DNA of 33,692 bases from a virus. The stretch covers positions 1 to 33,692 of IMG/VR virus record IMGVR_UViG_3300036759_000102. The stretch is one strand, 5' to 3'. Made by a program: the position numbers and the translations under genes. Positions 1 through 21,455 of this stretch are shown here, piece by piece. Under the pieces are notes generated by a model that did no database searches, was not told where the DNA came from, and saw nothing but the letters and a program-made list of their open reading frames with translations. How positions within the stretch are numbered: position 1 is the stretch's first letter; each line of letters begins with the position of its first letter.

Positions 1-294
1 CACGCCACTGTTGAGGATGGCCTTCAACATCCGGTAGTAGGCCTGGTGCGCTGCCGGTTGCGAGTCGGGATTGAGTCCTGCGAGGAATTCCTCGAAATCC
101 ACGCCGCAGGCGGAAGCCAGCTTGGCGTACATCTCGATGGTGGGATTGCCTTCGCCGGCGAGTAGATCGTGGACGTAGGTCCGGTCGACTTTGGCGGCCT
201 CGGCAAGTTCCGTCTTGCTCAAGCCCGCCTGCTCGCGGAGCTGGTCCAGCCGTGCGCCCAATAGCTCCTTGGCGCGTTTGAGGCGATCCTGCAC
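1..294 (-). CDS. XRE-family HTH regulator, 3' end beyond window (repressor candidate)
   Basis: DNA-binding transcriptional regulator of the XRE/Cro-CI family. The 98 residues in the window have no stop; a five-helix HTH lies at about residues 10-65, with the recognition region around LSKTELAEAAKVDRTYVHDL. The GTG start at 294 is preceded in frame by a TGA and has no Shine-Dalgarno sequence. Instead TACAGT lies 6 nt upstream, as expected for a leaderless mRNA; the lambda cI transcript from PRM is a known leaderless precedent. It diverges from a second XRE gene at 382 whose HTH shares DRTY.HD.L.GE.NP..E.Y with it, so the two look like paralogous halves of a lysis-lysogeny switch. Which one is the repressor is inference. 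The C-terminal part is missing because the window ends. Confidence 0.85.
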   Translation of the reverse strand, partial: MQDRLKRAKELLGARLDQLREQAGLSKTELAEAAKVDRTYVHDLLAGEGNPTIEMYAKLASACGVDFEEFLAGLNPDSQPAAHQAYYRMLKAILNSGV

Positions 295-381
295 GGGGCC
301 ACTGTAGACGGTTCACAACCGACAGCAACAAAAATTTCGTCTTGATGGTCTAGGGTATACATCGGTAGGATACCAGCCAAC
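295..381. promoter_or_regulatory. Divergent control region between the two XRE genes
   Basis: This 87-nt region separates the two divergent HTH genes. The leftward gene has a -10-like TACAGT (minus strand, 306-301) with TTGCTG 16 nt further upstream. On the rightward side an imperfect inverted repeat, GGTATAC (354-360) and GGATACC (368-374), overlaps the ribosome site GGTAGGA (364-370) of the gene at 382. A dimeric regulator bound there could block rightward expression. The operator role is inference. Confidence 0.45.
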
Positions 382-621
382 ATGACGATGCAAATGTCTG
401 AACGCAAAATTGCAGGCGACAACATCCGGGCGTTGATGGAGAAAAACGATCTCTCCGTCAAGCAACTCACCGACGAGCTGGAGATCGATCGGACGTACTT
501 CCACGACATCCTCAACGGTGAGGCGAATCCCTCGATGGAAAAGTACGAACGGATCGCCTCACGGCTCGGTGTCACGGTGCGCGATCTTCTCGAGCCTTCG
601 AAGCGGCGCAGGGCCTCATGA
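382..621 (+). CDS. XRE-family HTH regulator, 79 aa (Cro/CI-like)
   Basis: Small DNA-binding regulator made almost only of an XRE helix-turn-helix domain (about residues 10-70). Its recognition region, LSVKQLTDELEIDRTYFHD, is clearly related to the divergent gene ending at 294. At 79 aa it lacks an extra oligomerisation or cleavage domain, which is more Cro-like than LexA/CI-like. ATG codons occur at 382, 388 and 394; 382 is used because GGTAGGA lies 11 nt upstream. It heads a rightward gene run that leads to the excisionase-like and integrase genes, so it probably governs the lysogeny decision. Target sites and role are inferred from context. Confidence 0.85.
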   Translation: MTMQMSERKIAGDNIRALMEKNDLSVKQLTDELEIDRTYFHDILNGEANPSMEKYERIASRLGVTVRDLLEPSKRRRAS

Positions 622-1099: not shown

Positions 1100-1879
1100 A
1101 TGGAAGTTTTACGCATTGCGGAGGCGATGCGCCGCGGGGCGCTCTTAAAACCGCAACACCTGGGGCCGGGGCTGGCCGATCCGGGCGAGACCCGCTCGTG
1201 CGCGATGCTGGCCGCGATTGAGGGCGCGGGTTACGGAAAAATTCCGCCGCATCCGGGGATGTGGGTCACCGATGGCCGCGGGCCGGGTCACCCGGCCGGA
1301 CCAGGGACGGTGGTCTATGAGACGCCGGAGCCCTGGCGGATTCCGTTGTCGCTGCCTGTCCGGTGTCCGGTGGGCGGCTGTTCCTGGCTCGATATCGCGC
1401 GGCCGCATCGGAGCGCGCATTTGATCGAAGCGATCACGCACCTCAACGACCACCACCGCTGGAGCCGGGAGGCGATCGCCGACTGGATCGAGCCGATTGA
1501 GAATGCCTACTGCGCGGGACGGGAGAATGCGATCGACATGGGGCTGGTACCCGCGAACCCGCCGGCACGATGGGAGGATCCGGTACCGCCATCGGTGACG
1601 GAGCGCAGAAGCGTCACCGTGGTCCGTCCCGACGGATCGGTCGAGCGCGTCGCGCTGCGCTCGGAGCCGCTGTCCGGAAAAGCGATCGAGCGGATGTGGC
1701 GCGACGAAGGCGTCCGCGATCAGGCGCTCTGGGACGAGCTGCGTGCGCTCGACAAAAGCAAAATGTCGGAACTCGAACGCGCCGTCATCGACGATTTCGA
1801 GCACGGCCTTGAGCGGGCGCTAACGGAGCAATCCCGTGCCGAAGCAGAAGGTGTGGAGGAAACCGTCTCGCAGGTTTAA
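1100..1879 (+). CDS. Hypothetical phage protein with HLND..W.REAIADW motif, 259 aa
   Basis: Hypothetical protein. The middle carries a cysteine pair (CPVGGC, about residue 90) and then AITHLNDHHRWSREAIADWI (about 112-131). This HLND-W-IADW signature is familiar from many small phage proteins of unknown function. The N-terminal half is Gly/Pro-rich; the C-terminal 80 residues are charged and helical. ATG at 1100 is preferred to GTG 1094 because GAGG lies 5 nt before the ATG and overlaps the GTG. It sits between the membrane proteins and the excisionase-like gene. The family resemblance is from memory of the motif; no function can be assigned. Confidence 0.75.
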   Translation: MEVLRIAEAMRRGALLKPQHLGPGLADPGETRSCAMLAAIEGAGYGKIPPHPGMWVTDGRGPGHPAGPGTVVYETPEPWRIPLSLPVRCPVGGCSWLDIARPHRSAHLIEAITHLNDHHRWSREAIADWIEPIENAYCAGRENAIDMGLVPANPPARWEDPVPPSVTERRSVTVVRPDGSVERVALRSEPLSGKAIERMWRDEGVRDQALWDELRALDKSKMSELERAVIDDFEHGLERALTEQSRAEAEGVEETVSQV

Positions 1880-2004
1880 GCAGGAGGCCGGCCGCGTGAC
1901 AGCGCTGCCGGCCTTTCGATTTCTTGCCAAGGAAGCAATTGAGATGAAACGGGATTGCTCGCGGATGATCCTCGCGCGGTCCTGCGACAGGAGAGGTCCC
2001 GGCG

Positions 2005-2265
2005 ATGATCGGAAAACAGATTGCGTTGATCCAGGTGCCCAACAAGGCGCTGTTCGGGTTGAAAGCCGCCGCGCAATATCTGGACATCAGCCCCGACACG
2101 CTGCGCGAAGACACCGACGCGGGCCTGCTTCCCTGCTACGAATTCCACGGCCGCCGCACCTACAAACTCGAAGACTTAGAAATGTTAAGGGCGCGTCTCC
2201 CGCGCTGGCATAATGACCGCCGCCCAATACCAGCGTCAGCAGAGAGGATTGTTGATGTCGAATGA
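2005..2265 (+). CDS. MerR/AlpA-type helix-turn-helix protein, excisionase candidate
   Basis: An 86-aa protein with a winged-helix of the HTH_17/excisionase type. FGLKAAAQYLDISPDTLRED (about residues 17-36) is the HTH, followed by the wing LLPCYEFHGRRTYKLEDLE. GAGAGG lies upstream of the ATG. It overlaps the integrase start by 11 nt, the classic xis-int arrangement, so a role as recombination directionality factor or int regulator is likely. The same fold is used in transcriptional regulators, so Xis activity is inferred from position. Confidence 0.8.
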   Translation: MIGKQIALIQVPNKALFGLKAAAQYLDISPDTLREDTDAGLLPCYEFHGRRTYKLEDLEMLRARLPRWHNDRRPIPASAERIVDVE

Positions 2266-3424
2266 AGATCGCAACATCCTGAAGCGCCGCGGCCGGCTGG
2301 AACTGTCGAAGTACTGGCCCGACGGCACGCGCTTCCGGCGCCCGTTCCCTAATCTTACGCTCGCCCGTCAGATGCGCGCACGGATAGAAGCCGCCATCGC
2401 CGACGGAACCTGGCGGGAGTTGAAAGCCAAGCTCTCGCTCGAGAGACAAGAGCCTCCACCCGCCCCTGCCCGCGTGCTCACCTTGAACGAATACGCCCCG
2501 ATGTTTCTGGCCGAAATGCAGCGCCGGAACCGGCGGCCCGATTTTCACCGCATCCAGTTGGGCAACATCTTGCCGGTCCTCGGCGAGCTGCCCCTCACGT
2601 CGATCACCCGCGCGGAGGCGCTGCGCTATCGCGCCTCGCGTCCATCCGGCCTGGCTTTGGCGACGATCAATCGCGGCATGGCAGTGTTGAGTTCCATGTT
2701 GAGTTGTGCGATCGAGGCGGAGTTGTTGCCCGGCCCAAATCCGCTGTTTGGGCTCGACAGCTATGAGGAGGCCGAGCGTGATCTCTTCATCATGACTCTG
2801 GCTCAGGAGCGCGCTTTCGTCGCGGCGCTCTTGAGCATCGATTTGGCAGTCGGCGCGTATGCCGGTTTTTTGGGGGAAACGGCAATCCGGACCGAGGAAG
2901 GGCTGCGCCTCACCTGGCGCACGATCGGCCTGGAGTCTCGGATTGTGACGGTCCCGGCTGGTATCGCAAAGACCAAGAAGGCGCGGCACATCCCGATGTC
3001 AGATTTCTGCAAGGACCTGCTCGGGATGTTGCCGCACGTGACGGACGATCCGCACGTATTCATTCGGGACACGACTCTCAAACGCGTGAAGGATACACGC
3101 GGCGCGTTTTCGAAAGCGCGTGAGAGAACAGGCCTGGATGTACACCCGGAGAGCTTTCGTCACTTCAGAATAACCCAGTGGATGTCCCGGGGAATCGATC
3201 CTGGGGTCGTGCAAGAGCTTGCCGGCCACTCTGACATCCACACGACCATGCGCTACGCGCATTTCGTTCCAGGCTGGGCGGCTCGGCGGATCCTCGAGAC
3301 GCAGCAGGCGGAGTCGGAATCACTGCGTCAGCTCATGTTCGCTTTCGAATCTGGACTAGGACCAAAACAGGACCAGTCGGTTGAGGAGCTGGAGCGGTTG
3401 TATTCATTGGATGCGGGTAAATAG
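2255..3424 (+). CDS. int: Tyrosine-recombinase integrase, 389 aa
   Basis: Site-specific integrase acting on the adjacent tRNA-Leu attP core. Arm/core-binding regions occupy about residues 1-180 and the catalytic domain about 190-360. Catalytic residues visible: Arg212 (ETAIRTEEGLRL), Lys near 239-242 (AKTKKARHI), Arg302 (HPESFRHFRIT), His325 (LAGHSDIHTT) and Tyr334 (TMRYAHF). The position of the usual box II His, three residues before Arg302, appears to be Glu, with a His 5 residues before the Arg. ATG 2255 is chosen over 2213 because GAGAGG precedes it. The gene overlaps the excisionase-like gene and its 3' end contains one of the att arm repeats. Its strand and position fit int transcribed toward attP. 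Confidence 0.95.
   Translation: MSNEDRNILKRRGRLELSKYWPDGTRFRRPFPNLTLARQMRARIEAAIADGTWRELKAKLSLERQEPPPAPARVLTLNEYAPMFLAEMQRRNRRPDFHRIQLGNILPVLGELPLTSITRAEALRYRASRPSGLALATINRGMAVLSSMLSCAIEAELLPGPNPLFGLDSYEEAERDLFIMTLAQERAFVAALLSIDLAVGAYAGFLGETAIRTEEGLRLTWRTIGLESRIVTVPAGIAKTKKARHIPMSDFCKDLLGMLPHVTDDPHVFIRDTTLKRVKDTRGAFSKARERTGLDVHPESFRHFRITQWMSRGIDPGVVQELAGHSDIHTTMRYAHFVPGWAARRILETQQAESESLRQLMFAFESGLGPKQDQSVEELERLYSLDAGK
3358..3375 (+). repeat. Direct repeat copy 1, probable integrase arm-type site
   Basis: AGGACCAAAACAGGACCA, itself two AGGACCA units separated by AAAC. An identical 18-bp copy lies at 3604-3621, on the other side of the tRNA-derived core. Direct repeats flanking a core are how tyrosine integrases mark the P and P' arms. 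This copy is embedded in the last codons of int. Confidence 0.75.
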
Positions 3425-3439
3425 TTGAGGGGAAACGAA

Positions 3440-3507
3440 TGCCGAAAAGAGGACTCGAACCTCCACCCCCTTGCGAGGACTAGAACCTGAATCTAGAACA
3501 ACTGCCT
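3440..3507 (-). other. attP core: 3' part of tRNA-Leu(CAG)
   Basis: On the minus strand this reads as the 3' portion of a tRNA-Leu. It has the anticodon stem CTAGA / loop TTCAGGT / TCTAG (plus-strand 3480-3496, anticodon CAG), a variable arm, the T arm GGAGG-TTCGAGT-CCTCT, and the acceptor strand ending CGGC plus discriminator A at 3440. No CCA is encoded and no matching 5' acceptor half or full D arm follows, so it is not a functional tRNA. Phages that integrate into tRNA genes carry such a 3' fragment so that the gene is restored on insertion. Identity to the host tRNA probably ends near 3496-3507. Confidence 0.85.
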
Positions 3508-3542
3508 TAGTGTTTTCGTGGAAATCCGCAGAAACCGTGTAG

Positions 3543-3572
3543 TTGACGCGGTATTGGGCTCTGCGGAATAGA
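3543..3572 (+). promoter_or_regulatory. Possible rightward promoter after attP
   Basis: TTGACG (3543-3548) and AATAGA (3567-3572) are separated by 18 nt and could be a sigma70-type promoter for the gene at 3691. The -10 match is weak (three of six), so this is only a candidate. Confidence 0.25.
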
Positions 3573-3603
3573 CGATCTCCACCGATAGTCCCGGATTTCA
3601 AAC

Positions 3604-3621
3604 AGGACCAAAACAGGACCA
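3604..3621 (+). repeat. Direct repeat copy 2, probable integrase arm-type site
   Basis: Second identical copy of AGGACCAAAACAGGACCA, 97 nt beyond the tRNA-derived core on the side away from int. Having both arms contiguous with one core indicates an undivided attP rather than an attL or attR junction. Confidence 0.75.
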
Positions 3622-3690
3622 AGGATGAAGGGCGGCAACGCTGGTGTTCTCCGCTCGTGTCAATGCTCGTGGTGTATCCGGAGAGTTTTG

Positions 3691-4551
3691 ATGGGTTCAA
3701 GCGTTGGTTTCGTAATCCTTCCGCGGGATGAATTCGACCATCCCTTCTTCGACGACTTTTGGAATCGTGCGGCCTGGACCGAATTGCTTATGCGCGCTCG
3801 AGGGATCGCAAACGATCGCCTCGCACGCGGTCAACTGGAGGGTTCCTATCGGGACTTTGCGCGGCTGCTCAAGGTGACCGAGGATCGTGTCCGGAAATTT
3901 CTCCGGCGTCTGGTTGAACTCGGCAAGATCGCGATCGACGTCGCGGCAACGAAACACTCCGCGGCGATCTACCGTGTCGTCGACTTTGCGCGCTACAACG
4001 GAGAAAAAGCGAAAAACACCAATGTTTCCAAGGGTGCGGTGAAATCCGCCACTCAAGCCGCCACTCCGATGTTGTTTGAAACACAGGGCGTTAAGAACAA
4101 CTCCGCCACTCAAACCGCCACTCAACAGGTCACTGTAGATGAAACGCGCGCGCGTTTAATAGACAACGGTAAGACAACGTTAGGGAAAGAATCCTCATCT
4201 CCCAAACCCTCTTCTCCTTCCGGGCTCGATGATGAGTTTCGAAAACGAGAAAAGACCGTCGTCTCGACACCGATCGCAGAATCGGAAGTGGATCGCCTCA
4301 CAACGCGTGTTGTTGAAAAATTCGGCCTCGAATCTGGCTCGGCGCGCGACGTCGTGCTGTTGGGCCTCCTGCGAAGCCAGGCAAGGCAACGGATCCACTC
4401 CGCGGAGTATTTCCGGACGATCGTCGAGGAGCTGCGCTCGCAACCGTTGCCGAATCTCTACGCCCACTATCTCGAATTCAAGCTCCGACAACTGCGAGGG
4501 GTGGTTGAGGCACGCACGTACGCGGCCGCCGTTGACGCACGCGGCCCGTAA
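3691..4551 (+). CDS. Winged-helix protein, phage replication-initiation-like, 286 aa
   Basis: Probable DNA-binding replication initiator or replisome organiser. The N-terminal half has the pattern of this phage family: HPFFDDFWNRAAW, then RGQLEGSYRDFARLLKVT and RVRKFLRRLVELGKIAI (about residues 45-85), a winged helix. A Ser/Thr/Ala-rich linker follows and then a helical C-terminal domain (about 205-286). ATG 3691 is chosen because GGAGAG lies 5 nt upstream; the frame is open upstream to 3625. It is the first gene right of attP and the only replication-like gene seen. No helicase loader ATPase motif is present, so origin recognition is the most likely role, by inference. Confidence 0.65.
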   Translation: MGSSVGFVILPRDEFDHPFFDDFWNRAAWTELLMRARGIANDRLARGQLEGSYRDFARLLKVTEDRVRKFLRRLVELGKIAIDVAATKHSAAIYRVVDFARYNGEKAKNTNVSKGAVKSATQAATPMLFETQGVKNNSATQTATQQVTVDETRARLIDNGKTTLGKESSSPKPSSPSGLDDEFRKREKTVVSTPIAESEVDRLTTRVVEKFGLESGSARDVVLLGLLRSQARQRIHSAEYFRTIVEELRSQPLPNLYAHYLEFKLRQLRGVVEARTYAAAVDARGP

Positions 4552-4560
4552 ATGTAGGCC

Positions 4561-4580
4561 TGCAGCATGTCTGCATTTTT
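4561..4580 (+). terminator. Weak hairpin with T run
   Basis: TGCAG (4561-4565), loop CATGT, CTGCA (4571-4575) and then five T. The stem is only 5 bp, so at best it is a leaky terminator after the replication-like gene. Confidence 0.3.
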
Positions 4581-4704
4581 CGCGCGGCTGGGGCACGGTG
4601 CGCGTCCCGATGGCGATCAACCCATGGCAGCCATTCCTCCCGATCGGTAAGGGGCCAATCCGATCCGCGCGATTTCGATAACGTTCGCAACTTATGGAGG
4701 GTTT

Positions 4705-4900
4705 ATGCAAAGACCGTCAATCGGAAGAATCGTGCTCTACAACCATCCTGGCAGTGCTGACGGCAAGTATCCGCCGACACAGTCGCCGGCAATTATTCAA
4801 GAACGTCGCCGAGGACGGCACGGTGCGCCTCTTTGTGTTTGGTCCGAAAGGGGGCGACGGGCCTTGTCAGTGGAACTGGCCTCCGCGCGTGGAGTCATGA
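4705..4900 (+). pseudogene. Small phage protein split by a one-base frameshift
   Basis: A strong GGAGG precedes the ATG at 4705. The first frame reads IGRIVLYNHPGSADG...SPAII and the next (+1) frame continues NVAEDGTVRLFVFGPKGG...WNWPPRV, ending with TGA at 4900. Together they match the order of a common small phage protein (IGRIV, PAI, VFxDG, HWP signatures) about 64 aa long. Removing one A from the CAAG at 4798-4801 restores a single frame. The end overlaps the next ATG (ATGA), as expected for the intact gene. It could be a real inactivating insertion, a sequencing indel, or less likely programmed +1 frameshifting. Function of the family is unknown. Confidence 0.7.
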
Positions 4901-5103
4901 GTCCCTGCAAGAGGTGCGGCGCCGATATCGAGCTCGGTCTACTTCATCGGCCGACGTCTTTTTTCTGTGAAACCTGCGTCGACGCGATTGTCATCGAGTG
5001 GGAGCAGGGCCTCGAGGAGCCTATGCAAGTCACACCCACACTCGAGGGCCTCGACGAGTGGGCACAGCGGCGCCGTAGGAGTGAAACTACGCCGGCGGGC
5101 TGA
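4897..5103 (+). CDS. Zinc-ribbon mini-protein, 68 aa
   Basis: Small protein with paired cysteines CKRC (residues 4-7) and CETC (near 29-32), typical of a four-Cys zinc ribbon, followed by an acidic helical tail and a basic stretch RRRR. ATG at 4897 overlaps the TGA of the frameshifted gene, and its own TGA overlaps the next ATG, so these genes are translationally coupled. Such ribbons bind nucleic acid or a protein partner; the specific role is unknown. Confidence 0.75.
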   Translation: MSPCKRCGADIELGLLHRPTSFFCETCVDAIVIEWEQGLEEPMQVTPTLEGLDEWAQRRRRSETTPAG

Positions 5104-5300
5104 TGATCCGTCGATTTCATCGCAAAGACAGCTGTACGGGTAAGTACAGGTACAGCGCACATGAGGCTGATCTCGAGATCGAGCGCGCGGCCACGTTTCG
5201 AGGCGAGCAGCTGCGCGCTTACGAGTGCGAGAAGTGCGGAAGCCTTCACCTGACGGCACTTTCGAAAGAAGAGTTCGAAAAGTTTGGGAGGAAACAATGA
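5103..5300 (+). CDS. Zinc-finger-like phage protein, 65 aa
   Basis: Carries Cys11 followed by GKYRYS and later YECEKCGSLHLTAL (about residues 41-54). This resembles a small phage family that starts C-GK-R and ends C..CG-WHLT. One Cys plus a CxxC and a His could bind zinc. Its start overlaps the previous stop (TGATG) and its stop overlaps the next start (ATGA). Role unknown; a nucleic-acid-binding accessory protein is the likeliest reading. Confidence 0.75.
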   Translation: MIRRFHRKDSCTGKYRYSAHEADLEIERAATFRGEQLRAYECEKCGSLHLTALSKEEFEKFGRKQ

Positions 5301-5524
5301 GTGGGTCCGCGTTCCATCGCCAACTCGCGCTTACGATTCAGCCACACCTTGAGAGAATCGAACGGTTGCTCGGTTCGAGCTATGCCCTGACACTCGTCGC
5401 GCGCCACACACCAGAAATGCCGGCCGACGCCGATATCATCCTGACCCGTGATGATCTGGACAAAGTCAAAGCGGCGATCGACAGGTTGAAGGACCGCGAT
5501 CCGGTAGTCCGCGCGGAAGTTTGA
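5297..5524 (+). CDS. Small acidic helical protein, 75 aa
   Basis: Unrecognised 75-aa protein, mostly helical, with no signal peptide, membrane span or cysteine. ATG at 5297 has GGGAGG 5 nt upstream and overlaps the previous stop. It is the last gene of the rightward cluster that starts at 4705, and a 9-bp hairpin begins at its own stop codon. No function can be assigned. Confidence 0.65.
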   Translation: MSGSAFHRQLALTIQPHLERIERLLGSSYALTLVARHTPEMPADADIILTRDDLDKVKAAIDRLKDRDPVVRAEV

Positions 5525-5557
5525 AGGAAACTCTGAACACTTTCCTTCAGCCTTTTC
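5522..5557 (+). terminator. Hairpin terminator after the early cluster
   Basis: TGAAGGAAA (5522-5530), a 10-nt loop and TTTCCTTCA (5541-5549) form a perfect 9-bp stem that includes the stop codon of the preceding gene. It is followed by GCCTTTTC. It lies between convergent transcription units (the leftward unit ends at 5600). Confidence 0.55.
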
Positions 5558-5599
5558 GGTCAAGCATTCCGGCCAATTTGGCTATTTGAGCTAATTTGG

Positions 5600-5764
5600 T
5601 TAGTTCTGTGCCTCGTGCACGATGAGATCGCGCGTCGTCTCTCCACCATCGCCCTTTTCTACTGTTGGTCCGCACCAACACTCGCCGGATTCAAGAACGT
5701 GCTCCGGACCAAAGTCGGGTACGACGTCGACCGCGGTGTCTGAGGTTATGGTTAGCCAGGCCAA
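5600..5764 (-). CDS. CWC-motif mini-protein, 54 aa
   Basis: Short leftward gene with TTG start at 5764; GGAG lies 9 nt upstream and an in-frame TGA closes the frame just before. The protein contains VDVVPDFGPEHVLESGECWC followed by GP and ends DLIVHEA. An EHV...CWC-P core with a late VH is familiar from small phage proteins of unknown function, where the Cys/His residues may bind metal. It follows the serine recombinase on the same strand after 67 nt and is probably its operon partner. The unusual start and short length keep confidence moderate. Confidence 0.6.
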   Translation of the reverse strand: MAWLTITSDTAVDVVPDFGPEHVLESGECWCGPTVEKGDGGETTRDLIVHEAQN

Positions 5765-5831
5765 CGTATTTGTCTCCGGTCAAAAAACAGGTGATTGTTT
5801 GCCGGGTACTTGGTCACTTGCGTTAAGTGGT

Positions 5832-6491
5832 TTAGTTTTCAATCGGCGTAGGGGTTTTGGCCGGGCTTTCGAGGCGTTTTTTCTCTGTCCACCTGGTCGC
5901 GATCGCCTGAACCGTTCCTCGGGCGATTCCCGTAGTCCTGGCAATGGCTCGCACACTCTGGCCGGCTCGATGTAGTTCGTAGACGCGCTCCTCGTCGACG
6001 AGCACTCGAGGCCGGCCGATCTTTTTCCCCTCTCTTTTCGCTCGATCGACGCCGGCCTGTACGCGCTCCTGGATCAACGAGCGCTCCAGCTCGGCGACAG
6101 CTCCGAGGACGGTAAAGATCATTTTCCCGACGGCCGTCGAGGTGTCGATCGCCTCGGTGAGGCTTACAAAGTTAATTCCCCATTTCCGGAAATCTTCGAG
6201 GGCTCGGAGCAGGTGCGAGACGCTGCGCGCGAAGCGATCGAAACGCCACACGATCACAGCGTCGAGTTTCCCGGTCTTCGCGTCGTGCATCATTCGATCG
6301 AGCTGCGGCCGGCGCTCCTTTGCGCCGCTATATCCGACGTCGACGTATTCGCGGAAAACGTGAAAATTGCGCGCTCGGATGTAGTCGCGCATCGGTTGGA
6401 GCTGGGTCTCTGGATCCTGGCCGTGTTGCTTTGTTGAAACTCGGGCGTAAAGTGCGACGCGTTTCGCTGCTTCCTGCTGCTCCATCTGCAT
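5832..6491 (-). CDS. Serine recombinase of the resolvase/invertase family, 219 aa
   Basis: Cuts and rejoins DNA through a serine nucleophile. The catalytic domain spans about residues 10-150: ALYARVST (Ser19), then VIVWRFDRFARS, the GKMIFTVLGAVAELERSLI segment and the long E-helix. A C-terminal HTH (about 160-205, SVRAIARTTGIARGTVQAI) binds the site. The length is that of the small resolvase/invertase class, not of large serine integrases. ATG at 6491 or 6485 could start it; neither has a strong ribosome site. The gene faces opposite to its neighbours and has its own control region upstream. With a tyrosine integrase already present, its role may be dimer resolution, inversion, or a passenger gene. 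Confidence 0.9.
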   Translation of the reverse strand: MQMEQQEAAKRVALYARVSTKQHGQDPETQLQPMRDYIRARNFHVFREYVDVGYSGAKERRPQLDRMMHDAKTGKLDAVIVWRFDRFARSVSHLLRALEDFRKWGINFVSLTEAIDTSTAVGKMIFTVLGAVAELERSLIQERVQAGVDRAKREGKKIGRPRVLVDEERVYELHRAGQSVRAIARTTGIARGTVQAIATRWTEKKRLESPAKTPTPIEN

Positions 6492-6508
6492 CCGTGCAAT
6501 TCAAAATT

Positions 6509-6530
6509 TGCAGCAATCCGCTGCAGTTTA
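6509..6530 (-). promoter_or_regulatory. Inverted repeat and -10 box upstream of the serine recombinase
   Basis: TGCAGC (6509-6514) and GCTGCA (6520-6525) form a 6-bp-arm inverted repeat with a 5-nt spacer, 18 nt before the recombinase start. On the minus strand TAAACT (6530-6525) abuts it, a TANNNT -10 box identical to the one at 18141-18136. The repeat would fall at the transcription start, a good place for autoregulation. Role inferred. Confidence 0.45.
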
Positions 6531-6637
6531 CAGAGAACGTATAGCGCGGGGACGTATACCCTGATCCCCGACGCAATCCGACACCCCTACGCGCGCGCGT
6601 GGAAACCCGGTTTTGTGATCCTCCAGGAGGCCTTGAA

Positions 6638-6844
6638 ATGTGCAAAGACAACGAGCATTACTTCGACACGGTCACCGTCAGCGAAACGACAACCAACAAG
6701 GTGAGCGATCACGGCGCTCTCACGTCGACGACGACGAAGCGCGAAATAGAGCTGATGTGTCGCAACTGCGGCAGTCGCAAGAAACCTACAGGGGCGATGC
6801 GGGCCGAACCGCTACGAACGAGGCGAGCTGCAGCGCGGGGGTAA
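6638..6844 (+). CDS. Small protein with CxxC pair, 68 aa
   Basis: Unrecognised protein. The N-terminus is MCKDNEHYFDTVTV, a Thr-rich middle follows, then LMCRNCGS (about residues 40-46) and a basic C-terminus. CRNC plus the N-terminal Cys and His could form a metal site. ATG 6638 has a near-perfect AGGAGG with 7 nt spacing, so the start is secure. It diverges from the serine recombinase and is followed directly by the inverted-repeat cluster. Confidence 0.7.
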   Translation: MCKDNEHYFDTVTVSETTTNKVSDHGALTSTTTKREIELMCRNCGSRKKPTGAMRAEPLRTRRAAARG

Positions 6845-6849
6845 ATAGG

Positions 6850-7079
6850 AGTTGAGTACTCTGATACTCAACTTGCCTTGCATCGGATCGACGCCGGCGT
6901 GCATAAAAATGCAGGTTTCGTGCATGAAAGTCGGGTGAAAACACCCGACTTGGTGGCGTGTTCTATTACGCCAGGTTGGGGCGTGCACGCCCCATCGTTG
7001 AGAGCCTCAAACAGTTACGATCTGATAAGTGTTCGGCGTCCCCTCCTCGTCAGGGGGGAATACCACTCATTTGAGTGGT
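6850..7079. repeat. Cluster of eight inverted repeats (structured RNA or origin candidate)
   Basis: In about 230 bp there are AGTTGAGTA/TACTCAACT (6850-6873, 9 bp), the palindrome ACGCCGGCGT (6891-6900), TGCAT-AAAA-ATGCA (6900-6913), AAGTCGGGTG-AAAA-CACCCGACTT (6928-6951, 10 bp), GGCGT/ACGCC (6955-6972), the 18-bp palindrome TGGGGCGTGCACGCCCCA (6977-6994), CCCCT/AGGGG (7040-7056) and ACCACTCA/TGAGTGGT (7062-7079). A third TGCAT at 6921-6925 could pair alternatively with ATGCA at 6909-6913. The arms are all different, so this is not a simple repeat family. The last two lie in the 5' end of the next gene. Confidence 0.75.
7016..7021 (+). promoter_or_regulatory. TANNNT -10 box, leaderless promoter for the gene at 7029
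   Basis: TACGAT lies 7 nt before the GTG at 7029, and no ribosome site is present there. This spacing puts the transcription start at the start codon. It matches four other SD-less genes of the window. Confidence 0.5.
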
Positions 7080-7925
7080 GGTCTCGTTTCTTCCCCTCAT
7101 TTGAACGGGCGTCCGCTGCTCTCCGGGACGGCGATCGCCAGACGACAGCGTGAGGCCGAGGCCTTCGAAAGGGTCACTATCGAGCAGCTGCGTGAGGCGC
7201 AACGCGCCGTCGATCGCGTGACATCGGATCGGCTCGATGCGCTGATCCGGATCGACCCTCACGGACGTCGTTACCAATGGCGCGGCGTGGATGTGACCGG
7301 GGACGAGTACATAGCGCTTATAGCTCTGCAGCAAGAAAAGATAGATATCGAGGCGCGCGTCACTGAGACGCCGGCGGCTGCCACGAAAGAGGATCTCCTC
7401 CGGATCCAGGAGATCGTAACGATCATCGGGCCCGCCGGCGATGGCGAGCGCCAGGCTCGAGCGAGCGAGCGACGCGCGCAGCTGCAGGCCGAGCAACTGG
7501 TGCACGATCTCTACACCTGGTTGTCCTGGCTGCCGCAACACCCGGGCGGGACGGTTACGATCGCAGTCAGGCCGGAAACAATGGAGCGTTGGCGCGATCG
7601 ACAGAACGAGCTCGTGTGGCGTGAAGTCCGGATGGGCGAAACCCCGAACCTGGTCGGCTGGCTGCCACGGGAAAAGCAGGACTGCGAGAAGGACTATCAC
7701 CTGCGCGTCGCCGATCGGCCGAAGCTGTCGGCGTGGAACCTGCGGGGAGGCATTCCTCCCGACGCGGCGATGATCACGTCGCATCACGTGAGTTTCCGGA
7801 TCTGCCACGCGGTCGACGGCGCCGGCGAGACACATCTCGTGTATCGTGTCGATCCTCCTGTCTCCTTCCAGGTTCTCGATCGGGTGCAGTACTTCAAACC
7901 GTATCGAGGGCGCCGTGATCTGTGA
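7029..7925 (+). CDS. Hypothetical protein, 298 aa
   Basis: Unrecognised. The first 40 residues are Ser/Gly-rich and overlap two hairpins of the repeat cluster. Then comes a long charged helical region (about 45-160: RRQREAEAFERV..., ERQARASERRAQLQAEQ) and a globular C-terminal half rich in Trp/Tyr, with LVGWLPREKQDCEKDYHLRV near 215-235. GTG 7029 lacks a ribosome site but has TACGAT 7 nt upstream, supporting a leaderless start; TTG codons at 7071 and 7101 are alternatives. Its stop overlaps the next GTG start. The C-terminal domain looks well folded; no enzyme motif was recognised. Confidence 0.7.
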   Translation: MFGVPSSSGGNTTHLSGGLVSSPHLNGRPLLSGTAIARRQREAEAFERVTIEQLREAQRAVDRVTSDRLDALIRIDPHGRRYQWRGVDVTGDEYIALIALQQEKIDIEARVTETPAAATKEDLLRIQEIVTIIGPAGDGERQARASERRAQLQAEQLVHDLYTWLSWLPQHPGGTVTIAVRPETMERWRDRQNELVWREVRMGETPNLVGWLPREKQDCEKDYHLRVADRPKLSAWNLRGGIPPDAAMITSHHVSFRICHAVDGAGETHLVYRVDPPVSFQVLDRVQYFKPYRGRRDL

Positions 7926-8121
7926 CAAGTGCCTTTCGTCCAGGTTGGTGAGCTGTTCGGTCTGCGGGCTGTGTATTGATTGCTGTGCGATCGGGACGCC
8001 TACCGCCAAACGGCCGGAGCTGCTCGAGCAACACGCCGAGGATGTGAAAACGGGCCGCGTTCCGACAGCATCGCACTACCTGGGCGGGCCACGAGTTCCT
8101 CAACCGTTCGACGTCGAGTAG
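7915..8121 (+). CDS. Cysteine-rich zinc-binding mini-protein, 68 aa
   Basis: The first 27 residues contain CDKC, then CSVCGLCIDCC, giving eight cysteines in CxxC steps like a RING or treble-clef finger that could bind two zinc ions. The tail is short and Pro-rich. GTG at 7915 overlaps the end of the preceding gene by 11 nt and has GAGGG close upstream, so it is probably translated by coupling. It ends exactly where a convergent leftward gene ends (stop codons abut at 8121/8122). A protein-protein adaptor is likely; the target is unknown. Confidence 0.7.
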   Translation: MICDKCLSSRLVSCSVCGLCIDCCAIGTPTAKRPELLEQHAEDVKTGRVPTASHYLGGPRVPQPFDVE

Positions 8122-8415
8122 CTACTCGCTGCGGATATAGAAGTCCACGAAAGCAAACCACAAACAGCCATCGCGCGCCGGTACCGGCCGATCGAGATAC
8201 AACATGCGCTCGAGCGCGACGATCTCGTCGTGCCTTCCCATGAAACACGGCATGCACAGAAACCCGAGGTGCTCGGTCGATATCGGCGCGGCCTCGAAGT
8301 GGCAACAGTTGCACGTCGGATGGTGGTACACACCCTCGTCGTCAACCGGGTTGAGCATCGGCTCGCGGTGGGTGACTCTAACGAAGTGGTGGCAGGCGGG
8401 CGTCAGCGTGGCCAC
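8122..8415 (-). CDS. Cys/His-rich zinc-binding protein, 97 aa
   Basis: Leftward small protein with CHH near residue 8, HHPTCNCCHF (about 31-40) and LCMPCFMGRHDE (about 53-64), giving enough Cys and His for one or two zinc sites. The C-terminus is aromatic (LWFAFVDFY). Its start at 8415 overlaps the end of the Tat-signal gene (8403) by 13 nt, so the two form a coupled leftward operon. An inner ATG (MLNPVDDEG) is a possible alternative start. Function unknown. Confidence 0.65.
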   Translation of the reverse strand: MATLTPACHHFVRVTHREPMLNPVDDEGVYHHPTCNCCHFEAAPISTEHLGFLCMPCFMGRHDEIVALERMLYLDRPVPARDGCLWFAFVDFYIRSE

Positions 8416-8849
8416 TGGGTCACTGGGTACTCCACCGTGAACGGCGAGTGTTCGCTGTCATAGCGCGTGATCGGTCCGTGCTTTCCGATCTTCAACGCGA
8501 CGAGGTGTTTTCCAAGCTCGACGGCGCCGGGGTGGCGGGCCGCGAATTCCTCCTGCGTGAGTCCCATTCTGCGACGGTAGAGGCCGATCGGCGTGGTCTC
8601 GATGATCGCGAAAACCCTCAGAGGCTCCACTCCCGCGTTCAAGCGTATCCACTGCGGCGGCGGCAAACCCATGCGCCGGGTAAACCGAATTTCCATCCGG
8701 TCGATCTGTTCCCACGGGTCGATCGCCGGCGCCGGGATCGAGATCAGTTTCGGGCGCCAGGTCAAACGATCGAGGATCTCCTCCGGCGCCAAGAGTGCGG
8801 CCGTTGAGAGCCCGATCAAGTTCGTTAAAAATTTCCGGCGTTCCATCAT
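8403..8849 (-). CDS. Predicted Tat-exported protein of unknown function, 148 aa
   Basis: The N-terminus MMERRKFLTNLIGLSTAALL fits a twin-arginine signal: RRKFL, then a moderately hydrophobic stretch and a small-residue region. That predicts export of a folded protein across the inner membrane. The rest (RRMGLPPPQWIRL, RMGLTQEEFAARHPGAVELG) is not recognised. ATG 8849 has GGAGG at 6 nt spacing. It is on the strand opposite to the early genes, coupled to the zinc-binding gene downstream, with a 20-bp perfect palindrome 71 nt upstream. This suggests an independently regulated unit, perhaps expressed in the lysogen; that role is inference. Confidence 0.7.
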   Translation of the reverse strand: MMERRKFLTNLIGLSTAALLAPEEILDRLTWRPKLISIPAPAIDPWEQIDRMEIRFTRRMGLPPPQWIRLNAGVEPLRVFAIIETTPIGLYRRRMGLTQEEFAARHPGAVELGKHLVALKIGKHGPITRYDSEHSPFTVEYPVTQWPR

Positions 8850-8919
8850 CCAGGCCTCCCGAGTGGTGCACGGTACCGTCGGGCCCTATCCACCAAACCG
8901 AGGAACGATCGCGTGGCCG

Positions 8920-8939
8920 AGTGTAAACCGGTTTACACT
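8920..8939. promoter_or_regulatory. 20-bp perfect palindrome, operator candidate
   Basis: AGTGTAAACCGGTTTACACT is perfectly self-complementary and lies in the 267-bp gap between the divergent genes starting at 8849 and 9117. Its half site GTGTAAAC resembles operators of dimeric HTH regulators, for example LacI-family half sites, though the spacing here is 2 bp longer than GalR type. The rest of the gap (8850-9116) holds no convincing gene. Confidence 0.6.
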
Positions 8940-9116: not shown

Positions 9117-9314
9117 GTGCGCGTTGTAACGGTGGCTATCGACGACGACGAGGAAGTGCGAGAGTGTGCCTGCGGCTGTCGGGCTCCTTTTGTCGCGCGC
9201 AAAACCTCCGGCCGGAAATACTTCCGACGCAAACACAAAGAGATCGCCCGCAAGGCTCGCCTCGGTGACGGAAAGAAAGCACTTTCCGCAAATAGCCCCT
9301 CGCAGGGGGCCTGA
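9117..9314 (+). CDS. Zinc-finger-like basic protein, 65 aa
   Basis: Small basic protein with CACGC (about residues 15-19) followed by RAPFVARKTSGRKYFRRKHK, a pattern of small phage/plasmid proteins that combine a Cys cluster with a basic helix and a His. It probably binds nucleic acid. Two GTG codons could start it: 9117, with TAAAAT 8 nt upstream and so leaderless, or 9132. The frame is open upstream to 8913, but that part has no sensible start signal and would contain the palindrome. Function unknown. Confidence 0.6.
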   Translation: MRVVTVAIDDDEEVRECACGCRAPFVARKTSGRKYFRRKHKEIARKARLGDGKKALSANSPSQGA

Positions 9315-9357
9315 CTCCTTCCGGTTTTCCCGTTCTGGTTCGATTATCTGCTCGCGT

Positions 9358-9378
9358 GCGGTGCAACGATTGCACCGC
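9358..9378. promoter_or_regulatory. Perfect 9-bp inverted repeat upstream of the gene at 9389
   Basis: GCGGTGCAA and TTGCACCGC flank a CGA centre. There is no T run after it, so it is not an intrinsic terminator. It ends just before GGGAG, the likely ribosome site of the next gene, so it may be an operator or a translational control hairpin. Confidence 0.5.
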
Positions 9379-9388
9379 GGGAGACTGA

Positions 9389-9679
9389 TTGCTTGTGAAA
9401 CCACGGATGGGAACACAACTCTGTTTTTCCTTTGATTCGGCCGAAATGCCGACGAGCGCCACGTCGGCCGTCGTTGTTCCCTCCGTCGTTCCTTTTCCTA
9501 AACCTTGCTCGATAGCGGATCCCTCTCGAGATCCTTACTCCGTCGCTGCCCTTGCTGATGCGCTCGTGCGTTTTCTCCTCCGTGGAAGACAAAGCGAATC
9601 CCTCGCGGAAGCCCGGCGGCGCCGGAGTAGGGCTAAAGGCCAATGTCGATCGACGATCGTCTACGGGGTGGCCGCGTGA
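9389..9679 (+). CDS. Hypothetical protein with N-terminal clamp-binding-like motif, 96 aa
   Basis: Unrecognised. TTG 9389 or GTG 9395 may start it (GGGAG 5-11 nt upstream); ATG 9407 is a third option. Near the N-terminus it reads GTQLCFSFD, similar to the QLxLF peptide by which proteins bind the DNA-polymerase sliding clamp. A low-complexity Ser/Val/Pro region follows, then a helical segment (SVAALADALVRFLLRG) and a basic end. It overlaps the next gene's start by 37 nt. The clamp idea is inference from six residues. Confidence 0.5.
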   Translation: MLVKPRMGTQLCFSFDSAEMPTSATSAVVVPSVVPFPKPCSIADPSRDPYSVAALADALVRFLLRGRQSESLAEARRRRSRAKGQCRSTIVYGVAA

Positions 9680-17657: not shown

Positions 17658-17771
17658 GTGCCGCGCGGCCGGTGTTTCATCTGCGAGGACGAAACGCGGC
17701 CGGGCCGGACGTTGTGCGACGAGTGCGATCCCAACGAGACGTTGGGGCGGATCCACGAAACCGGGGAATGA
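17658..17771 (+). CDS. Zinc-ribbon micro-protein, 37 aa
   Basis: GTG at 17658 has GAGGAG at 9 nt spacing. The peptide contains CFIC and CDEC separated by 13 residues, exactly a four-Cys zinc knuckle and little else. It sits 6 nt after the portal stop and ends where a terminator hairpin begins. Strong ribosome site plus paired cysteines argue that it is real despite its length. Confidence 0.6.
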   Translation: MPRGRCFICEDETRPGRTLCDECDPNETLGRIHETGE

Positions 17772-17815
17772 GCAAAAGAAAGCCATAATTAAGGCATTCT
17801 TTTGCCATTTTTATT
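17772..17815. terminator. Bidirectional terminator between portal unit and antisense gene
   Basis: GCAAAAGAA-A-GCC (17772-17784) pairs with GGC-A-TTCTTTTGC (17793-17805) around an 8-nt loop: a 12-bp stem with one A-A mismatch, followed by CATTTTTATT. It lies between convergent genes, and the minus strand also has a T-rich tail. Confidence 0.7.
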
Positions 17816-18128
17816 CGGTTTTCGGCGCCAGCTCCGGCAGCTCGCGGAAACCGCTCTTTCTGAGGACAGCCTGCAGGGCCTCGAGGTAGAGGCGATGCAC
17901 TTCCAACTCTTGCGACAGGGACTCGGCGACGCTGCGGTGATCCTCGTCGACTCGTGCGATCCGTCGGCTGATCGCATCGAAGCGGATCGGGATCTGTAGC
18001 GCCGGATCCGCGTACACGTGGCAGGCCTGCAGGAGCTCGTTTGCAATGTTGTCGAAGTCCGCGGCCTTCAAAAAGTACCAGGCGACGCGGCCGCACAGTT
18101 TTTTCCATAAGGCTCGAAGGTTTTTCAC
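17811..18128 (-). CDS. Helical protein on the antisense strand, 105 aa
   Basis: Leftward gene starting MKNLRALWKKLCG, then WYFLKAADFDNIANELLQA and a long helical stretch (RRIARVDEDHRSVAESLSQE...), probably a coiled coil. GTG 18128 has no ribosome site; TAAACT lies 7 nt upstream, so it appears leaderless. The first residues MKNL and the bases around the start (RTGAAAAACCT) are shared with the antisense gene at 15168. It is convergent with the portal unit across a terminator. Function unknown; expression in the lysogen is plausible. Confidence 0.7.
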   Translation of the reverse strand: MKNLRALWKKLCGRVAWYFLKAADFDNIANELLQACHVYADPALQIPIRFDAISRRIARVDEDHRSVAESLSQELEVHRLYLEALQAVLRKSGFRELPELAPKTE

Positions 18129-19121: not shown

Positions 19122-20126
19122 ATGGCGGTACTCTCTACCGGCGCTTTGACCCTTTTGGATTGGGCCAAGCGCGTTGATCCCAACGGCAAAACGGCAACGA
19201 TCGTTGAGCTCCTCGGACAGACAAACGAGATCCTCGACGACATGCTTTTCATCGAAGGAAACCTTCCGACCGGACATCGAACCACGGTTCGGACGGGCCT
19301 TCCTACCGTCGCCTGGCGCTTGCTTAACCAGGGCGTCGCGACGAGCAAGTCGACAACCGCACAGATCGACGAGCAATGCGGAATGCTCGAGGCCTGGAGC
19401 GAAGTCGATTGCGATCTCGCCAAACTCAACGGGAACGTCAACCGTTTCCGTCTCTCCGAAGCGCAGGCCTTTATCGAGGCAATGAATCAGGAAATGGCTC
19501 AAACGCTGTTCTACGGAAACACCGGAACAGCGCAAGAGGAATTTACCGGACTCGCTGCTCGATACTCTGCGATCTCTGGCGCGACCAACGCCTCGCACGT
19601 GATCAGCGGCGGGGGCTCTCAGTCCGATAACTCTTCGGTCTGGCTGGTGTGCTGGGGCGAGCAGACTTGCGTCGGCATTTTCCCCAAAGGCTCTAAAGCA
19701 GGCCTGCAGCATGACGACTACGGCGAACAAACCGCAGAAGTCACGGCCGGCGTCGGCGGCACTCGCATGCGCGTGTACCAGGAGCGCTGGCAGTGGAAAG
19801 CCGGCATTGCCTTGCGCGATTGGCGCTATGTAGTCCGGATCTGCAATATCGACATTTCCAACCTGATCGCGAAGTCCTCGGCCGCGGATCTCCCCGAGCT
19901 GATGATCAAGGCGCTCTATCGCGTTCCTTCTCTGAAGGTCGCGAAGCCCGTTTTCTACATGAATCGGACGTGTATGGAAATGCTCGATATCCAACGGCGC
20001 GACGACGTGCAAACCGGCGGACAGCTCACCTACGAACTGGTCGACGGCAAGCGCGTGAACTTCTTCCGCGGGATTCCGATCCGCATCGTCGATCAGCTGC
20101 TCGAAACCGAAGCAACCGTCAGCTAA
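19122..20126 (+). CDS. Major capsid protein, 334 aa
   Basis: Main shell subunit, expected to have the HK97 fold. LSTGALTLLDWAKRVDPNGK at the N-terminus, the TLFYGNTGTAQEEFTGLAAR region and RMRVYQERWQWKAGIALRDW followed by YVVRICNID are typical of the podovirus capsid class (gp7/BPP-1-like), recognised from pattern. It follows the scaffold and precedes the cement protein. AAGGA lies 9 nt before ATG 19122. Confidence 0.85.
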   Translation: MAVLSTGALTLLDWAKRVDPNGKTATIVELLGQTNEILDDMLFIEGNLPTGHRTTVRTGLPTVAWRLLNQGVATSKSTTAQIDEQCGMLEAWSEVDCDLAKLNGNVNRFRLSEAQAFIEAMNQEMAQTLFYGNTGTAQEEFTGLAARYSAISGATNASHVISGGGSQSDNSSVWLVCWGEQTCVGIFPKGSKAGLQHDDYGEQTAEVTAGVGGTRMRVYQERWQWKAGIALRDWRYVVRICNIDISNLIAKSSAADLPELMIKALYRVPSLKVAKPVFYMNRTCMEMLDIQRRDDVQTGGQLTYELVDGKRVNFFRGIPIRIVDQLLETEATVS

Positions 20127-20152: not shown

Positions 20153-20605
20153 ATGTTTATTGATGCTCTTTGCCTTCTCTCCGACGCGCAGGCGGTCTCG
20201 GCCGATGCAGCGTCGACCAACAGCTATGACTGCGGCAACGTGACACCGAAGCGGGAAATCTCTTCCGGAGAGCCCCTCTGTATTGCGTTCGCGGTCGACG
20301 TCGCGGCCGATGTGGCCGACGGCGACGAAACCTACGAGTTTCAAGTGATCCAGTCGGCCAACTCGAACTTGTCCTCACCCGACATTTTGACGAAAACCGA
20401 CACGGCTCTCGTGACTCGCACGGTCCTCGTGGCTGGTTACAAGTTCTACATGGCGTTCACGCCTCAACTTGTGACGAAACGTTACGTCGGCGCGTTCTAC
20501 AACGTCGACGGCACGACTCCGACGATCACCGTCACGGCCGTCATTCAGCCGTTGTCGATGATCCAGACCGACAAGACCTACGCGAAGGGTTACACGGTCA
20601 GCTAA
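20153..20605 (+). CDS. Capsid cement protein, Bbp16-like, 150 aa
   Basis: Probable trimeric or dimeric cement protein stabilising the capsid, as in Bordetella phage BPP-1. The start ALCLLSDAQAVSADAASTNS is the family hallmark (LLFSDAQAVTA-AASTN); the rest is a jelly-roll-like beta sandwich (GEPLCIAFAVDVAA, VAGYKFYMAF, KRYVGAFYNV). AAGGAG lies 10 nt upstream. Position immediately after the capsid gene agrees with BPP-1. Confidence 0.85.
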   Translation: MFIDALCLLSDAQAVSADAASTNSYDCGNVTPKREISSGEPLCIAFAVDVAADVADGDETYEFQVIQSANSNLSSPDILTKTDTALVTRTVLVAGYKFYMAFTPQLVTKRYVGAFYNVDGTTPTITVTAVIQPLSMIQTDKTYAKGYTVS

Positions 20606-20611
20606 ACCCCT

Positions 20612-20643
20612 CGAGGCCTCCAGGCGCAGGCCTGGGGGCCTCG
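20612..20643 (+). terminator. 14-bp GC-rich hairpin after the cement gene
   Basis: CGAGGCCTCCAGGC and GCCTGGGGGCCTCG pair with one G-T wobble around a GCAG loop. TCACTTTCATTC follows, so the T tract is weak: a partial terminator or an mRNA stability/processing element that raises capsid mRNA over downstream genes. Confidence 0.6.
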
Positions 20644-20669
20644 TCACTTTCATTCACTAAGGAAAACCC

Positions 20670-21455
20670 ATGATCACGAAAACGTTTTCAGCGGCCGGCG
20701 TGTCGCTGGCGCAGCTCGTTCAACCTGGCGAATCGTTTACCTATTCGCTCTCGTCCGCGGGTCACACGGGGCAGCTCGTGATCGAAAGCTCGACGGATAA
20801 CTTCGCCACGCTGCGGCGCGAAGCCTCACACACGGGAACAGCGGGAAGTCTGACAACGGCGTCGGCGACACTCATCAACGAGACCAACAAGCCGCGGCAA
20901 TACCGCGCGAAGTCGCTCACGTTCACGTCAGGAAACATCACGGCGACGCTTAACGACGTCACTCCAAAGGCAAGCCAGGCGCCGGTAAAGATTGATCGAA
21001 AAATCATTTTCAGCGCGGCCGGCCGATCGAAAGTCGGCGGCACGTCCGGTTTCGTTGTCGCCGCGGCCGACAACATCGCGCTCGTGACGTGTCCGGCGTC
21101 ACAGTCGGGCTCCAAGCTGGTCGTTCCGCTCTCAGGCTTGCGGCCTGGGGACATCATTCGCGGATTTCATCTGATCGGACAAGTCGAGTCGGGCGGGAAC
21201 ACGGCAACCGTTGACGCGCAGCTGCGCGTGATGAAAGCGGCCGCGGCCGACGTCACCGACGCACTGGTCGGCTCGATCACTCAGGCCTCGTTCACGGCCG
21301 ACGGCATTCTGTCGGCAACCAACACACGCAAAGCAGGACTTAATCAACCCGTGGCCGAGGACGAAACCTACTACGTCCTGATCACGGTTACCACGGCCGC
21401 GGCGACAGATATCGCTCTACAGGGCGTCGCGCTCGAGGTCACTCAAGCCAACTAA
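20670..21455 (+). CDS. Predicted beta-rich virion protein, 261 aa
   Basis: Ser/Thr/Ala-rich and probably all-beta, with two similar-looking halves (about 1-105 and 110-261), the second with SGSKLVVPLSGLRPGDIIRG. Such proteins near capsid genes are often decoration or head-fibre proteins. AAGGA lies 7 nt before ATG 20670. The family is not recognised. Confidence 0.7.
   Translation: MITKTFSAAGVSLAQLVQPGESFTYSLSSAGHTGQLVIESSTDNFATLRREASHTGTAGSLTTASATLINETNKPRQYRAKSLTFTSGNITATLNDVTPKASQAPVKIDRKIIFSAAGRSKVGGTSGFVVAAADNIALVTCPASQSGSKLVVPLSGLRPGDIIRGFHLIGQVESGGNTATVDAQLRVMKAAAADVTDALVGSITQASFTADGILSATNTRKAGLNQPVAEDETYYVLITVTTAAATDIALQGVALEVTQAN

Follow-up and report, generated by a model that had tools for sequence, protein, structure and literature searches.

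Genomic setting

The DNA analyzed here (the window) is a virus record of 33,692 bases with an overall GC content of roughly 60%. It encodes a P22-type portal, a GP7-type major capsid protein, a large terminase and a tyrosine integrase, as well as a DnaD/O-like replication protein and a small serine recombinase (5832–6491), whose plasmid relatives reach at most 45% identity among the matches listed. Its sequence identifies it as a P22-like podovirus, temperate as judged by its integrase. A dense cluster of inverted repeats occupies positions 6850–7079, between two plus-strand genes, where coding signal is absent (Table 1).

Table 1. Coordinates of the cluster elements, the flanking genes and related sites in the window
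Feature	Position	Strand	Description
Tandem 12-bp iterons	4046–4126	+	Two pairs of CCGCCACTCAA(A), inside the O-like/helicase-loader gene (3625–4551)
Upstream 68-aa frame	6638–6844	+	Shine-Dalgarno-like AGGAGG; MCKDNEHYF...CRNCG; no known family
H1	6850–6873		9-bp arms including TTGAG/CTCAA, 6-nt spacer; 5 nt past the stop of the 68-aa gene
Palindrome	6891–6900		ACGCCGGCGT, without loop; does not form in folding
TGCAT-AAAA-ATGCA	6900–6913		Excludes ATGCA-N7-TGCAT
ATGCA-N7-TGCAT	6909–6925		Alternative partner set to 6900–6913
H3	6928–6951		10-bp arms, AAAA loop (TTTT on the minus strand)
H4	6954–6973		TGGCGT-N8-ACGCCA
H5	6977–6994		Perfect 18-bp palindrome, TGGGGCGTGCACGCCCCA
H6	6998–7010		TTGAG-AGC-CTCAA
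H8	7040–7056		CCCCT-N7-AGGGG
H9	7062–7079		ACCACTCATTTGAGTGGT; minus strand CCACCACTCAAA; marginal terminator shape on the plus strand
Second site sharing TCAAATGAG with H9	7093–7108	−	Imperfect palindrome, 30 bp from H9
Downstream gene	7101–7925	+	298-aa open frame from 7029; no known family

A sequence-only reading of this DNA had placed the cluster just before a leaderless gene whose first codons hold the last two hairpins, a claim that our analysis leaves unsupported. Downstream coding signal, judged by codon use, begins only after about 7110–7150, and the GTG at 7029 is merely the earliest start codon to follow the TAA stop at 7026–7028; the frame start at this GTG is an ORF-finder effect. 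Possible start codons of the downstream gene are TTG 7071 and TTG 7101. An AlphaFold model of the 298-aa protein, made without an alignment, has low confidence (pLDDT 46).

We found one near relative of the locus, G001 (42,022 bases), which is probably circular because a 127-base direct repeat stands at both of its ends. Searches of viral contigs with the 298-aa, an 81-aa and the O-like frames returned nothing beyond this near-identical relative, and the same was true of the 298-aa frame and the terminase against genome contigs and of the exact H3 and H5 patterns in viral contigs. Against phages and plasmids, neither the 298-aa frame nor the cluster DNA found a homologue, and the O-like protein, searched against phages, added none. 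Two 21-base matches to the cluster DNA (E 0.9) were set aside as chance.

G001 and the window are identical over the compared stretch 3599–8913, which includes the cluster, and about 96–97% identical over 564–1518 and 1679–3700. Window positions 1–563 have no match in G001, where the opposite region holds small frames with a helix-turn-helix-like appearance on visual inspection; the difference is possibly an immunity-region swap. G001 carries 244 additional bases near window 8906–8913, a segment that lies at about 4878–5128 of the G001 locus L003 and is mostly missing from the window. A 232-aa minus-strand frame over these extra bases contains DIVELLSQTNEILDDV; the major capsid protein of the window has an almost identical sequence, TIVELLGQTNEILDDM, close to its start (19200–19241). 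We speculate that the 232-aa frame might be a capsid-fragment gene able to interfere with capsid assembly. With its minus-strand genes and this indel between the two genomes, the cluster region is accessory.

Architecture and folding of the cluster

Nine perfect inverted repeats make up the cluster, none overlapping another; their arms are 5–10 bp long and their spacers 0–8 nt, and every element named in the earlier reading, including the 18-bp palindrome and the AAAA loops, is present. Neighboring hairpins between 6909 and 7010 are separated by linkers of just 2–3 nt. Spacers measure 3–8 nt in six of the nine hairpins, while H5 and H9 have 0 and 2 nt between their arms. The hairpin centers, determined by hand, lie at 6861.5, 6906.5, 6939.5, 6963.5, 6985.5, 7004, 7048 and 7070.5, and the palindrome centers share no single helical phase. 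Inside the robust stems, G-U pairs, mismatches and bulges are absent, in part because the search was for perfect stems, and visual inspection showed no GNRA or UNCG loop in them. Extensions of the stems by G·U pairs, also counted by eye, number four on the plus strand and one on the minus strand, too few to weigh.

The region folds strongly on both strands, with folding z-scores for RNA (6840–7100) of −5.7 on plus and −7.6 on minus and for single-stranded DNA (6845–7085) of about −8 on either strand. The plus strand folds no more strongly than the minus strand, and because both fold strongly, RNA and DNA roles are inseparable by folding. A lower-depth folding-energy scan of the plus strand placed the cluster second of 335 segments, after 17701–17900 and before 20501–20700. 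On inspection, the first of these, which follows the portal gene and has the top plus-strand folding z-score, looks like a long hairpin near a small frame, and the other looks like a terminator-like stem. What is peculiar about the cluster is its tight row of short perfect hairpins and not its total energy.

We examined which helices hold in the RNA ensemble. In the isolated cluster, H1, H3, H4, H5 and H9 have a mean pair probability of at least 0.95 on both strands. With longer flanks, both strands retain H3, H4, H5 and H9, while H1 falls from 0.97–0.98 in the isolated cluster to 0.36 on the plus strand. H6 has a probability of 0.84 on the plus strand and 0.01 on the minus strand when isolated, and of 0.15 on the plus strand with longer flanks. 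H8, as originally drawn, hardly forms on either strand. Its 3′ G-run (7052–7058) instead pairs with 7091–7098 around H9 in a short fold of the plus-strand RNA (7030–7100).

Several elements can exchange partners. As the earlier reading had noticed, the TGCAT/ATGCA/TGCAT elements pair in two mutually exclusive ways (Table 1), and TGCAT-AAAA-ATGCA has a probability of 0.66 on the plus and 0.77 on the minus strand of the isolated cluster. A helix between GACGCC (6890–6895) and GGCGTC (7035–7040) reaches 0.51 on the plus strand when isolated and 0 with longer flanks. Just three of the 12 exchangeable GGCGT/ACGCC pairings have appreciable probability.

Shared motifs and a possible protein-bound DNA array

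The arms had been described as unrelated to one another, which does not hold for all of them: ACGCC/GGCGT, TGCA and CTCAA recur. ACGCC/GGCGT occurs in seven copies (0.85 expected), in the palindrome at 6891, in H4, in H5 and at 7035, and CTCAA/TTGAG in five copies (0.62 expected), in H1, H6 and H9; the excess is partly due to palindromy, as each stem is counted twice. TGCA is also present five times, and four of these elements (6879, 6900, 6921 and 6984) share one 21-bp phase, a regularity matched at any of six tested periods by 0.0012 of random placements. We note that the motif enrichments, this phase and the match of H9 to an iteron described below were noticed before testing, and that their small probabilities are therefore optimistic.

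These features bear on the possibility that the cluster is a double-stranded DNA control region, in which dimeric phage or host proteins bind the palindromes and phased repeats as an operator- or enhancer-like array and regulate the flanking genes. The symmetry of the structure between strands and the restriction of the stems to Watson-Crick pairs are consistent with such an array, as are the nearly spacerless palindromes H5 and H9, the TCAAATGAG sequence that H9 has in common with the site at 7093, the phasing of TGCA and the presence of other long palindromes in the window, for example at 8920–8939. Against it, the stems mostly differ in sequence, so that one protein cannot explain all of them, the palindrome centers lie off a common helical phase, and no promoter-like site is nearby. 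Operators of the lambda OR/OL type are tandem palindromes, and those of one repressor share sequence. The mid-cluster palindromes, spaced 18–24 bp center to center, resemble such operators in arrangement but are mostly without shared sequence. We regard a DNA array as the closest competitor among the explanations considered here, conceivable although on balance doubtful. A multi-operator role is possible for a subset of elements, namely H9 with the 7093 site and the TGCA elements in 21-bp phase.

Two further structures lie downstream. The 20-bp perfect palindrome at 8920–8939 (AGTGTAAACCGGTTTACACT) is operator-like, and three perfect hairpins at 9269, 9358 and 9448 (9269–9468) are spaced about 90 bp apart.

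Hairpin density beyond chance

To score hairpin density, we took the arm length beyond 4 in the best 235-base stretch and compared the window with 400 first-order Markov sequences of the same length and dinucleotide make-up. The cluster scores 26, which none of the 400 random sequences reached (mean 11.9, sd 1.6, largest 20). A stricter score restricted to arms of at least 6 gave a narrower margin, 84 for the cluster and at most 78 in 30 random sequences.

Phage DNA served as a second control. We found 68 viral loci via their terminase, one of which is G001, and scored the other 67 (639,929 bases). No window frame of at least 60 residues from the first 11.5 kb had a match among these 67 (E 1e-4), so they were used only as hairpin-density controls. 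Their top score was 19, from a contig of 70% GC. Named P22-like phages, represented by six stretches (189,086 bases), scored at most 16; HK022 scored 11. The dense cluster that the sequence-only reading had picked out is thus real, exceeding all random sequences and all phage DNA examined, and it is a strong outlier among these phage loci.

This result also bears on the view that the hairpins of the cluster are unconnected and share no function, being for example mRNA-stabilizing, transcription-insulating or left by a decayed insertion, and that they were selected singly or have drifted. The absence of any homologue or family, neighbors without a known family and the accessory character of a region with an indel are in line with this view. 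Nine packed perfect stems in 230 bp, however, exceed everything in the 0.64 Mb of terminase loci, and drift would break perfect stems. We consider this view unlikely, though more probable than those that place replication or recombination at the cluster.

A candidate replication origin outside the cluster

The earlier reading had seen no origin elsewhere in the sequence and had offered the cluster as one. We find an O-type candidate at 4046–4126, within the O-like gene. The encoded protein (3625–4551) matches DnaD-like helicase loaders and aligns with the O protein of HK022 (E = 3e-7), which is annotated as similar to P22 gp18. Copies of the iteron CCGCCACTCAA stand at 4046, 4103 and 4115, and a two-mismatch copy at 4058, forming two tandem 12-mer pairs 57 bp apart. 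In the HK022 O gene, the part that encodes the linker likewise carries tandem 11-mers in two groups, 68 bp from each other. In an AlphaFold model of the O-like protein made without an alignment, of low confidence (pLDDT 44), the repeats fall within an unstructured linker. O-type origins carry tandem repeats in pairs within the linker that joins the winged-helix and C-terminal parts of an O homologue, and 4046–4126 shows this arrangement. The 124 bases after the iterons (4127–4250) have 48% GC, compared with roughly 60% overall. The stretch 4046–4126 is therefore put forward as a candidate replication origin of the P22/HK022 type. Just before the O-like gene, at 3600–3622, AAACAGGACCA stands twice in tandem.

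The cluster lies outside the O-like gene and lacks this arrangement of iterons within such a gene and an adjoining AT-richer tract. The GC-skew comparison proposed for it as an origin found its turns elsewhere: in G001, the cumulative skew has its turning points at 5005 and 23,224, away from both the cluster (11,803) and the iterons (9,056), and so favors neither site.

One element does connect the cluster to the iterons. The minus strand of H9, CCACCACTCAAA, matches the iteron CCGCCACTCAAA at 11 of 12 positions, and H9 is the sole place outside the O-like gene with at most two mismatches to the 12-mer iteron. Among 10,804 other 12-mers of the window, taken at every third position, 21 have an equally good partner in the cluster, which corresponds to a probability of about 0.002, uncorrected for the 21 repeat rows inspected. 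The 9-mer core of the iteron, CCACTCAAA, is not enriched in the window (seven places with at most one mismatch, 5.5 expected), and the 11-mer occurs with two mismatches at nine other places outside the O-like gene. The link between H9 and the iterons is suggestive. A comparison of H9 with lambda iterons gave 10–12 matches of 18, a level that other places in the window also reach, and was discarded.

These observations frame the idea that the cluster is a replication element, either a secondary origin or a single-strand initiation or assembly site, perhaps bound by the O-like initiator. The single mismatch between H9 and the iteron speaks for it. The better O-type candidate at 4046–4126, the lack of a skew turn at the cluster, the ordinary frequency of the iteron core and 11-mer and the background level of the lambda likeness speak against it, and we hold it to be very unlikely.

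Other roles

The region 6850–7079 contains no tandem or CRISPR array, only short two-copy repeats and no regularly repeated unit, and H9 alone has even a marginal terminator tail; the exclusion of a CRISPR array and of a terminator series in the sequence-only reading agrees with this. Between 6500 and 7200, we counted one terminator-like site (H9), with 0.7 expected from shuffles, and no promoter-like site. Rfam gave no match at the gathering threshold across the whole window, and a permissive search of 6750–7200 gave nothing convincing (best sub-threshold E 2.9). A match to Rfam Pseudomonadales-1 reached 10.9 bits where the threshold is 68 and was rejected as chance; no supporting paper was found.

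A segment at about 3440–3495, just downstream of the integrase gene, is 75–77% identical by blastn to the 3′ half of Caulobacter phage tRNA-Leu genes, with the best match (77%) to that of Caulobacter phage CcrSC, and goes unrecognized as a tRNA fragment by Rfam. This is the likely attP core of the integrase. It is highly improbable that the cluster is itself a recombination site, whether a tyrosine integrase attP or a site for the small serine recombinase, for although both enzymes are encoded less than 5 kb away, the cluster has no tRNA 3′-end identity segment beside the integrase gene, a better attP exists at about 3440–3495, and no inversion or excision separates the window from G001 at the cluster.

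Interpretation

Among the three roles that the earlier reading had left to choose from, a structured RNA is possible and is our first choice, the origin is weakened, and multiple operators are possible for a subset of elements only. We tentatively favor, at somewhat less than even likelihood, the cluster being a structured non-coding RNA of the early transcript that controls the next genes. Hairpins that abut with 2–3-nt linkers and mostly have hairpin-sized loops favor a folded single strand. The position in a non-coding gap between plus-strand genes, the exchangeable helices and the placement of H9 before the start region favor this reading too, as does a hairpin density above that of random sequences and other phage DNA.

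Other observations weaken the RNA reading. There is no Rfam family and no promoter nearby, and plus-strand folding does not exceed that of the minus strand. Watson-Crick-only stems without GNRA or UNCG loops are no less compatible with DNA. H9 has a weak terminator tail, of a kind that chance would give, and several plus-strand helices weaken with longer flanks. The only relative found, G001, is identical over 3599–8913 and so offers no base changes for covariation, and few of the GGCGT/ACGCC pairings are probable.

We hypothesize that the segment from 6845 to about 7100 would be a structured RNA within a rightward early transcript, between the 68-aa gene and the next gene pair, and that it would be transcribed as part of the upstream gene's transcript. 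It may comprise about five stable hairpins plus helices that exchange between TGCAT and ATGCA and between GGCGT and ACGCC, and the G-run at 7052–7058 may pair with either of two CCCCT partners. Such an RNA would act in cis on the downstream genes, either through H9, whose terminator shape would let transcription pass or halt it, or through occlusion of the start region that immediately follows H9, or through both. It is also conceivable, if quite unlikely, that the cluster is an undescribed control element, with perfect hairpins and exchangeable arms, in which RNA refolding, possibly together with binding of the O-like initiator via H9, couples early expression to replication.

Relation to known systems and significance

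A phage precedent for cis-acting early RNA is put of HK022, described as an antiterminator RNA of the early transcript that works without a dedicated protein, about 70 nt long, with two stem-loops bearing indents and bulges, downstream of early promoters, and with put sites that resemble one another in sequence (PMC9378689). Compared with that description, the cluster would similarly be a stem-loop RNA of a phage early transcript and might work alike if the RNA reading holds, but it differs in its length of about 230 nt, its many short perfect stems and its position between two genes. The cluster had no blastn match in HK022 at E 1 and does not have the makings of a put site.

Origins of the lambda/P22 O type have iterons in the O gene, as stated in two sources (PMC7466680, PMC5043065). 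The window shows the same architecture at 4046–4126, by that account, but this stretch is 2.7 kb from the cluster, in which H9 alone resembles the iterons.

GOLLD and ROOL are structured non-coding RNAs (PMC12286853), and the cluster resembles them in being non-coding and strongly structured. It differs in that 6750–7200 is without an Rfam match, even in a permissive search. GOLLD and ROOL are phage-associated and far larger than the cluster. In the openly licensed literature on phage RNAs, hairpin origins and leaders, we found no description of such a hairpin array among the matches listed.

If the cluster is a control RNA, phage leaders would gain a new design; if it acts as DNA, it would be an unusual multi-palindrome control region. 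As a by-product, the analysis points to a candidate paired-iteron origin of the P22/HK022 type in a distant podovirus.
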